From assembly GCA_018817385.1 (NCBI GenBank), contig JAHIUA010000036.1, positions 20,980 through 84,979 of the forward strand: a stretch of 64,000 nt of DNA, given 5' to 3'. Of this stretch, positions 7,001 to 64,000 are shown piece after piece (position 1 is the first letter of the stretch; each line of letters begins with the position of its first letter). The stretch comes from Pseudomonadota bacterium. GTDB lineage: Bacteria; Desulfobacterota; Desulfobulbia; Desulfobulbales; Desulfocapsaceae. Position numbers and translations under genes: made by a program. A model generated the notes under the pieces. The model did not search any database, had not been told where the DNA came from, and saw nothing but the letters and a program-made list of their open reading frames with translations.

Positions 7001-7041
7001 AAGCTGAACCGGGCTCCATCGGCCCGGTTCAGCTTGCCTTT
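7001..7041 (+). terminator. Rho-independent-like terminator after pilY1
   Basis: AAGCTGAACCGGGC-tccatcg-GCCCGGTTCAGCTT 14-bp perfect stem followed by gcctttt. Confidence 0.75.
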
Positions 7042-7166
7042 TCAATAGGCATAGGCGCCTCAAAACAGAATCATTCTTGAAGGTGATTGGTGCAGGGACT
7101 CAGATTACACCCCTCTTGGTGGGTGCGGCCCAGGATGCTTGAGCTATTGAAAAAGGACCATCTCCT

Positions 7167-7361
7167 TCAGGAAACCACCTCGAAGCCGATTTTAGCAATG
7201 GCCTCTTTGAGCACTTTCGCCTCCACTTCGCCCTCATAGCTGGCCTCTTTTTTCTCGAGGTCCACTTCTATATTTGTCAGCCCTGGAATGCCTTCCAGGG
7301 CCTTTTTTGTTGCCGCTACGCAGTGCTGGCAGCTCATTCCTTTTATTGATACGGTAGCCAT
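7167..7361 (-). CDS. copZ: Heavy-metal-associated domain copper chaperone
   Basis: 64 aa MATVSIKGMSCQHCVAATKKALEGIPGLTNIEVDLEKKEASYEG; GMxCxxC HMA motif. Confidence 0.85.
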   Translation of the reverse strand: MATVSIKGMSCQHCVAATKKALEGIPGLTNIEVDLEKKEASYEGEVEAKVLKEAIAKIGFEVVS

Positions 7362-7524: not shown

Positions 7525-7564
7525 AGGAGTCTGTCGCATTTATGTCTCATTCCAACAGACTCCT
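7525..7564 (-). repeat. Dispersed repeat family B, internally deleted mini-copy
   Basis: AGGAGTCTGTcgcatttatgtctcattccaACAGACTCCT; reverse complement ggagtctgttggaatGAGACATAAAtg matches the left end of the copies at 18267 and 63863. Confidence 0.65.
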
Positions 7565-18266: not shown

Positions 18267-18426
18267 GAGTCTGTTGGGCTGAGACATAACTCTGCTGCAG
18301 ATTTGACAAATCGGCCCATAGTTCTACGGCGTTTCGTTTAAGCGTTCTGCTCTTCGGCTCAAATCTATGAAAATCCGGTCTTGATTTCTCTAATTTTCGC
18401 TACAATTCTCTCAATCCGCCAGACTC
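18267..18426 (+). repeat. Dispersed repeat family B, copy 1
   Basis: gagtctgttggGCTGAGACATAActctgctgcagATTTGACAAATCGGCCCATA...gatttctctaattttcgctacaattctctcaatccgccagactc; near-identical blocks at 63863-64000 and, reverse-complemented, at 42665-42833. Confidence 0.88.
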
Positions 18427-42664: not shown

Positions 42665-42833
42665 AAGCCCTCTTTGGCGAGGTGAGAGAATCGTAGCGAA
42701 AATGAGAGAAATCGAGACCAGATTTCCATGGCTTTGAGGCGAAGAGCAGGACTCTTTAACGAAAAGCCATGGAAAGCTAGGTAGAGTTGGCATATTTGCA
42801 CTAGATTTATGTCTCAGTCCGGCAGGCTTTGAG
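42665..42833 (-). repeat. Dispersed repeat family B, copy 2
   Basis: Reverse complement gcctgccggactGAGACATAAATCT...TTTCCATGGCTTTtcgttaaAGAGtcctgCTCTtcgcctcAAAGCCATGGAAAtctggtctcgatttctctcattttcgctac matches copies at 18267 and 63863. Confidence 0.87.
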
Positions 42834-42867
42834 GGGCATAAGTACGCCTTTTTTTTCCACCTCTTTG

Positions 42868-42935
42868 GCGCAGGTACTTTCACACCTCAAGGGGGGACTC
42901 TACTGAGTGCCGGCTTACCGTTTATTGCCGGTGTT
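42868..42935 (+). repeat. Dispersed repeat family A, copy 2 (5'-truncated)
   Basis: ggtactttcacacctcaaggggggactctactgagtgccggcttaccgtttattgccggtgtt; matches 870-937 and the reverse complement of 61720-61790. Confidence 0.82.
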
Positions 42936-52455: not shown

Positions 52456-52510
52456 TTGGTATCCACAAATCTGTACTCCCCAACTGTCCACGATGGAAAG
52501 CAGCAATTTT

Positions 52511-52680
52511 CCGGCAGGTCTTCTGACTTCCGGATCATCCTCCCCCAGCGCCTTCCCTTTCCCGTGATTGGGAAAAGTGGCATTTGTGCTGAGATTGTCC
52601 CCGGTTACAGCGGCGGGCCCGTCTTCGATTTACACGAAGTTCCCTTTTAAACCCGTGATGATGGCCTTGAGAATGGTTTC
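52511..52680 (-). ncRNA. Cobalamin riboswitch
   Basis: Minus strand ttaaaagggaacttcgtgtaaatcgaagacgggcccgccgctgtaaccgggga...aaatgccactttt...gggaaggcgctgggggaggatgatccggaagtcagaagacctgccgg matches cobalamin-element conserved segments. Confidence 0.9.
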
Positions 52681-53144
52681 CTGATGACTTGCATCGGCCC
52701 GGGTACCTGAAAAATATCTCTGAATATATTACTGGAAATGGTATTATTTGTCAATCCTCTGCGGATTGGAGAAATTGTCTTTTTGCTCAATTGCTCGGTT
52801 ATATAATGGTGTTTATCCTCGAAATAGCAGGGAAATGCATCCCGAGGCGCCTGTACCTGGATGTTGGGGCTGTTACGAGGGGGCAGTGCTGAAGTTTTTC
52901 CCTGCCTCCACTCTCGTAGGCTCACTGAGCGGATCTTGGATGTCAGTTCTGCTCGTGTTCAGGCGTCACCTCTCAGGCCAGCGAGCTGAACGGCTAAAGA
53001 AAAACCATGCCGGAAAAGAACCTTTTTGGTCAGGTAAATTGACTGACAATGAAAGTGCTACTATAGTGAAAGAGGATATGATTTTTTTGATATGCACGAA
53101 GCCTTTCTCGTCCCCTCTCGATCTTTCTTGATGGAAAAAAACTC

Positions 53145-61719: not shown

Positions 61720-61825
61720 AACACCGGTGATGAACGGTAAGCCGGCACTCAGTACAGTCCCCCCTTGAGAGGTGAAAGTACCTGTACGAATTTTTTTGCA
61801 AAAAAACACGAAAAGAATTTCTAAG
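61720..61825 (-). repeat. Dispersed structured repeat family A, copy 3
   Basis: Reverse complement agaaattcttttcgtgtttttttgcaaaaaaattcgtacaggtactttcacctctcaaggggggactgtactgagtgccggcttaccgttcatcaccggtgt; matches 836-937. Confidence 0.87.
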
Positions 61826-61921
61826 AGACTAAAGAGCGTGTTGCGATGAGGCATTTCATGCCTACACTATAGGATAGTAGAGCGAACTGGTTGAATCAGG
61901 GCGGTATATCTGGAGAAGTTG

Positions 61922-62581: not shown

Positions 62582-62844
62582 CACGCTCTGGCCTCGCAGT
62601 GATGTCTTGCCTGCGGGCTGAGTTGTAAGGACTCGTTTGTTGGTGGGGGGCAGTGGTATTCAGGAGGTGTTCTCCCTTTTTCTTGAAACGGGTGAGCGGA
62701 GGAATTCCAGTTTTACAATGAGGGCAGTCTCTGGGAACCAGTGTTTCACAGTGTGCAGCGGCCCTCTTCTTTTGAAGGTTACGGTAACATATGGAGAATA
62801 TAATGTACCGTTATTCGCGGATATTTTTTTTAAAGGATTTTTCT

Positions 62845-63792
62845 ATGGGGCGAGTTTGCCGATTGTTGTTATTGCTTGTTGTCTGTTCTTCTCTTTTCCT
62901 CAGTGGCTGTGGGTCTAAGTGTGTGCAAGGGGATTGTTCCAACGGTGAGGGGACCTTTGCCCCAGACAGTGGTGACCGCTATGAGGGGGAATGGAAAAAC
63001 GGTAAAAAGCACGGACATGGCAAGTTTACCAAGGCTAATGGTGCCATGTACGTAGGACAGTGGGTCGCTGGCAAGAGACAGGGGTACGGGGTAGCCACCA
63101 GTGTCATGGGGGATCGCTACGAAGGAACCTGGAGTAAAGATGAGGTGGATGGTAAAGGCTTTGTCACTTACGCCAATGGTGATCGATTTGATGGGCTCTG
63201 GCGGAATGGTAAAAAGCAGGGACCTGGCCGGTTTATTTATATCAGCGGCAACACCTATGAAAGTGAGTGGCGTGACGATGTCGAAGTCGGCAAGGGGATC
63301 TACACAACGGTTACAGGGGAACATTATAGTGATGGCTGTATAAGCGGTGATTGTCGTAATGGGCGTGGCGTCTACACCAAGGTTAATGGCGACCACTATA
63401 AAGGAGAGTGGTTGAATGGTCGGAAACATGGTCACGGCATCCTGACGTATGGCAATGGTGATCGATATATCGGCGAGTGGAAAGATGACCGGAAGAATGG
63501 CTTCGGAAAATTTCAACAGACATGTGGAACCAGCTATGTCGGGAACTGGAAAAATGACCAATGGCATGGTCATGGGACGTATCAATCAATTGACGGGAAC
63601 CGTTTTGTTGGTGAATGGAAAAAGGGGAAGATGAACGGTAATGGAACCCTGCACCAGGCCAATGGTAATCAGTATGTGGGGAATTGGAAAAATGGTCTTA
63701 AGCATGGATTGGGAACACTTATCTATGCCAGTGGCTACAGATATGTCGGGGAATGGAGAGATAATAAGATGGTGAGAATCTATCCCAATTAA
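62845..63792 (+). CDS. MORN-repeat lipoprotein
   Basis: Lipobox LFLSGCGSKC and tandem roughly 23-aa GDRYEGEWKNGKKHGHGKFT-type repeats; start placed at 62845. Confidence 0.92.
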   Translation: MGRVCRLLLLLVVCSSLFLSGCGSKCVQGDCSNGEGTFAPDSGDRYEGEWKNGKKHGHGKFTKANGAMYVGQWVAGKRQGYGVATSVMGDRYEGTWSKDEVDGKGFVTYANGDRFDGLWRNGKKQGPGRFIYISGNTYESEWRDDVEVGKGIYTTVTGEHYSDGCISGDCRNGRGVYTKVNGDHYKGEWLNGRKHGHGILTYGNGDRYIGEWKDDRKNGFGKFQQTCGTSYVGNWKNDQWHGHGTYQSIDGNRFVGEWKKGKMNGNGTLHQANGNQYVGNWKNGLKHGLGTLIYASGYRYVGEWRDNKMVRIYPN

Positions 63793-63862
63793 GAAATGGT
63801 ATAAGGTGTTGCGAGATCTTGATATGCTGTTCTGAGATCTTAAGCGTACTCCATTAGACCCT

Positions 63863-64000
63863 AGGAGCCTGTCGGACTTAGACATAAATCTGCTGCAAAT
63901 TTGACAAATCGGCCCATATTTCCATGGCTTTTCGTTAAATAGACCTGCTATTCGCCTCAAATCCATGAAAATCTGGTCTCGATTTCTCTAATTTTCGCTA
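63863..64000 (+). repeat. Dispersed repeat family B, copy 3 (truncated by window end)
   Basis: aggagcctgtcggacttagacataaatctgctgcaaatttgacaaatcggcccatatttccatggcttttcgttaaatagacctgctattcgcctcaaatccatgaaaatctggtctcgatttctctaattttcgcta; long near-identical blocks with 18267-18400. Confidence 0.9.

Follow-up and report, generated by a model that had tools for sequence, protein, structure and literature searches.

MITEs linked to the IS1182 family and bordered by 4-bp repeats have already been published (PMC11578231, PMC3852290), and the element described here therefore belongs to an already known kind. MITEPye1 of Paracoccus yeei (PMC11578231) resembles it in having no genes, IS1182-like terminal inverted repeats (TIRs), 4-bp direct repeats, a mostly intergenic location and a predicted long stem-loop; compared by description, it differs in its alphaproteobacterial host and in its copy number (1–3 per chromosome). 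The ISMac2-linked MITEs of Methanosarcina acetivorans (PMC3852290) resemble it in length (160 and 169 bp) and in having an IS1182-family partner; the 160-bp form has 26-bp inverted repeats and 4-bp direct repeats. The differences, again by description, are the archaeal host and the copy numbers of 14 and 7.

Two further elements of the IS1182 family serve for comparison. ISPsy36 uses GGCC as its target (PMC8027508). IS1272, which inserts by replacing stem-loops (PMC5678879), shares with our element the transposase family and a link to palindromes; however, it makes no target duplication and uses an inverted repeat as target, whereas the insertion sites found here have no palindrome beyond CTAG itself.

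The repeat in the window

We analysed a 64-kb stretch of contig C84 (the window), in which a sequence-only reading had reported a dispersed structured repeat at four places. A search with CTGTCGGACTKAGACATAA, the motif of the left end, allowing 3 mismatches at most, gave four matches, exactly at these places (0.02 expected in shuffled sequence), and refined the limits slightly. Judged from its sequence, the repeat is very probably an IS1182-type MITE without genes of its own. The features are as follows:

7527–7562, minus strand: mini-copy of 36 bp, in which an internal deletion has joined the left ~25 bp with the right ~11 bp
18267–18426, plus strand: MITE copy 1, old, full length (exactly 160 bp), 86% to the genome consensus; flanked by CTGG on the left and, provided one end base is lost, by CTAA on the right
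18267–18278, plus strand: left TIR of copy 1, GAGTCTGTTGGG
18415–18426, minus strand: right TIR of copy 1, GAGTCTGGCGGA as read on the minus strand
42670–42829, minus strand: MITE copy 2, old, full length, 88% to the consensus; right terminal repeat decayed
63861–63864, no strand: CTAG target tetramer, the left flank of copy 3
63865–64000, plus strand: MITE copy 3, a young copy with its first 136 bp only

Copy 3 is cut at base 64000 because the contig (84979 bases) itself ends there. The ends of copy 1 that had been likened to TIRs (GAGTCTGTTGGG / CCGCCAGACTC) are present as first read, and in copy 2 so is the TTTCCATGGCTTT/AAAGCCATGGAAA stem.

Three other features of the window were noted in passing. 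A second dispersed repeat (core GTGCCGGCTTACCGTTTATTGCCGGTGT) occurs at 826–938, 42849–42935 and 61720–61832, with one of its copies adjoining MITE copy 2; a cobalamin riboswitch (103 bits) lies at 52496–52718 on the minus strand; and a gene with repeated 69-base units, encoding a MORN-repeat-like protein, occupies 62791–63792, ~70 bp upstream of copy 3.

Copies in the host genome

In the draft genome (5.38 Mb, 105 contigs) we found 86 left ends with at most two mismatches, compared with none for the reversed pattern; the repeat thus has some 86 copies or more. The canonical element has 160 bp and the form GAG[C/T]CTGTCGGACTTAGACATAAAT...TCTAAATCCGACAGACTC, is often flanked by two CTAG tetramers and folds into one long imperfect hairpin. 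As in a MITE, it is short, leaves no room for a transposase gene and is present in many copies. Young copies are 95–99% identical to the consensus, and this near-identity accounts for the contig ends that lie inside them; the MITE copies thus explain where this assembly breaks. The same young copies form two near-identical subfamilies, with body CCATGGCTTTTCG or CCATAGATTTTCG, which suggests recent bursts. Deletion forms of 36, 47 and 76 bp also occur; their junctions, judged by eye, lie at short direct repeats, and these forms may be products of slippage.

Target sites

CTAG stands on both flanks of 14 of the 53 full-length copies of the host genome and of 17 of the 30 full copies from other genomes, as expected of a target-site duplication; in six more host copies the right-side CTAG is shifted by one base, i.e. 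the element is without its last base. Left and right tetramers are equal in 18 host copies (four CTGG/CTGG pairs included) versus 11.2 in permutations (p 0.003); among copies from other genomes equality was not above permutation (p 0.22). Many copies have unequal tetramers, which we attribute to mutation of CTAG. This tetramer is scarce in the window, with 27 occurrences versus 61 expected from the window's trinucleotides.

The comparison with empty sites in sister genomes, proposed along with the sequence-only reading, covered one locus of the host genome. Here the TAG stop codon of a protoporphyrinogen oxidase-like gene is the place of the element, which faces a dnaA-like gene (identities read from sequence); two sisters of the same genus, G018 and G007, are both without the element there. 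For G018 the best alignment (15 of 22 bases; next best 11) is obtained when exactly 4 bp are taken out along with the 160 bp, while the G007 site does not resolve the 4 bp; this is one site, compared between diverged sister species. A 4-bp duplication is thus indicated by the CTAG flanks, which the MITE has in common with IS elements described below, and by the best fit in one of two sisters.

Several copies were located exactly at, or a few bases from, gene stop codons (e.g. host loci L192 and L182); duplication of CTAG keeps a TAG stop intact. From the comparison of joined and interrupted frames we claim no interrupted genes, the strongest case (L223) having resembled an antisense frame.

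IS1182 elements with the same ends

The sequence CTAGGAGNCTGTCGGA was searched for in 258 genomes of the class and was present in 70, with reversed controls at zero in every listed genome. Two genomes (G118 and G145) had one match pair each, ~1.66 kb apart, enclosing an IS1182-family transposase that scored 370 bits. IS1182 loci were found with model NF033551 at a cut-off of 270 bits; two rescanned proteins scored 370 bits. Seven loci of 1.6–1.67 kb from the same order (L304–L308, L310 and L313) carry at both ends a 12-bp TIR (at most two mismatches) together with CTAG; three of their hosts (G060, G037 and G053) are in the window's family. These loci share with the MITE the terminal repeats GAG[T/C]CTGTCGGA and the CTAG flanks, and differ from it in their length and in having a transposase. 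The match between IS and MITE ends extends over 12 to ~18 bp, as in GAGTCTGTCGGATTTAGAG of L308 and the right end of the MITE.

Other loci show related arrangements. L299 is an internally deleted IS1182 element with a left end of the same kind. In genome G035 (L303, 1291–3273) an IS1182 element and a 139-bp MITE stand side by side, both with the variant ends GAGGCTGTCCGA and separated by a single, shared CTAG. CTAG is absent from a second IS1182 group, whose ends are GAGTCTGTAGAA.

Matching termini, the CTAG target and the existence of transposase-bearing elements together tie the MITE to the IS1182 family and favour the non-autonomous element that had been offered as one of two readings. The related autonomous transposase sought for it was found in relatives, at the seven loci, but not in the host's own draft assembly, where no match to NF033551 exceeded the cut-off (best 36.9 bits versus 270). 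A partner in the same genome is usual for a MITE, though not required; the host copies look stranded, or else the partner looks to be missing, lost or collapsed in the assembly.

Several other transposase loci were considered as partners and set aside. Two weak IS1182-like loci of the host genome (L040 and L041) have the left boundary AAGGTGTTGAAAAG, not the TIR. None of the PF01609 transposases (six in the host genome and six in five other element-bearing genomes) has the TIR, and no DDE_5/IS701-like match in these genomes has MITE ends, two of them being bounded by other sequences.

We infer from these comparisons that the element was mobilised in trans, and can only infer which IS1182 element mobilised it, because the host draft genome holds none. 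In the proposed mechanism, the GAGTCTGTCGGA..TTAGA terminal repeats would be the binding sites of an IS1182 transposase, and insertion would take place at CTAG, with duplication of this tetramer. The insertions that survive are mostly intergenic, with some exactly on a TAG stop left intact by the CTAG duplication.

The inner part of the TIR changes at both ends together, reading ..GGACTTAGA in one genome set and ..GGAGAATTA in another, and the body can still be aligned; the element may therefore have switched partners. That different IS1182 transposases have carried a single hairpin body, the hairpin perhaps being needed for transposition, is a speculative and rather doubtful extension of this observation.

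Hairpin pairing and alternative explanations

Among 15 source sequences from several genomes, 90.1% of cells are paired over the 59 pairs of the hairpin (at most 48% in slid versions), a fraction favoured by the fact that one of the 15 supplied the structure. Twelve of the 59 pairs have changed on both sides, versus 5.2 in shuffles. Old copies behave differently: in 16 of them from the host genome, change per site is 0.135 in stems versus 0.140 in loops, and distinct changes making G-U (31) show no excess over those making A-C (29). The sequence-only reading had seen selection on structure in the inner-stem difference AAGAG/CTCTT versus AATAG/CTATT. The difference is real, and in 41 aligned copies the pair is U-A in 26, G-C in 4, C-G in 1, U-G in 3 and non-standard in 7; selection in resident copies does not follow, as their stems decay like loops. 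Covariation likewise holds among sources, without protection of stems in old resident copies. RNAalifold gave only a weak consensus for 41 mixed copies because the old ones have decayed. Given equal decay of stems and loops, pairing looks like a property of the mobile source and not of resident copies, and might be maintained in the DNA itself, e.g. for transposition.

The other reading offered at the outset was a structured intergenic RNA, i.e. a regulatory hairpin selected at each site as a terminator, processing site or small RNA. The single long hairpin of full copies, its pairing and double-sided changes among the 15 sources, and the fact that 31 of 42 left-hand genes point towards the element (flanking ORFs as given by a simple script) would all fit. 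The pattern of decay in old copies speaks against it, as does Rfam, in which no catalogued family matched the element (one weak match, E 0.079, lies outside it); moreover, an RNA selected in place leaves TIRs, CTAG flanks and transposase-bearing relatives unexplained. We consider it very improbable. The same low probability is given to movement by another CTAG- or TA-targeting transposase (IS630, IS5, IS701 or REP-type Y1), with a likeness to IS1182 ends arising by chance. CTAG is indeed used by other families, e.g. by the IS630 element ISPsy32 (PMC8027508), IS701 makes 4-bp duplications (PMC2266710), and four of the six element-bearing genomes searched contain IS701-like genes or remnants. 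Nevertheless, no PF01609 or PF13546 locus in these genomes has the terminal repeats of the MITE, whereas the seven IS1182 loci carry TIR and CTAG together; TIRs and CTAG duplication also argue against a REP/REPIN with a RAYT.

Distribution and relatives of the MITE

Of 93 genomes in the family, one has the exact left end of the IS1182-type MITE, and the same-genus genome G018 holds older, diverged copies. Close relatives were detected in Desulfobulbaceae BM506, Ca. Desulfobia pelagia, Modern_marine.mb.199, Desulfurivibrio SURF_16 and CSMAG_701; they point to a Desulfobulbales-type bacterium as host of the window. Since five or more other genomes have close relatives of the element, and further members of the order have more distant ones, it is not lineage-specific, contrary to what had been suggested. 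In three genomes (G106, G098 and G109) the body can be aligned and the inner TIR is mostly GAGAATT, like that of the IS1182 locus L304. Plasmid and phage collections gave no match to the element; one end-motif match in IMG/VR lay within unrelated sequence and was taken as chance.

A high-copy repeat of Desulfobulbaceae-type genomes, apparently uncatalogued as far as open-licence literature goes (an earlier entry is possible), is hereby assigned to a transposase family. The paired IS1182/MITE set, with its defined 4-bp target, offers material on site choice and on the movement of hairpin elements in a little-characterised family.

One MITE copy of BM506 (L064, ~7004–7334) is itself interrupted in its loop by another element with inverted repeats, TGTCTGTCCAGAAATAGG...CCATTTCTGGACAGACA, at whose ends TAAATAG is directly repeated.
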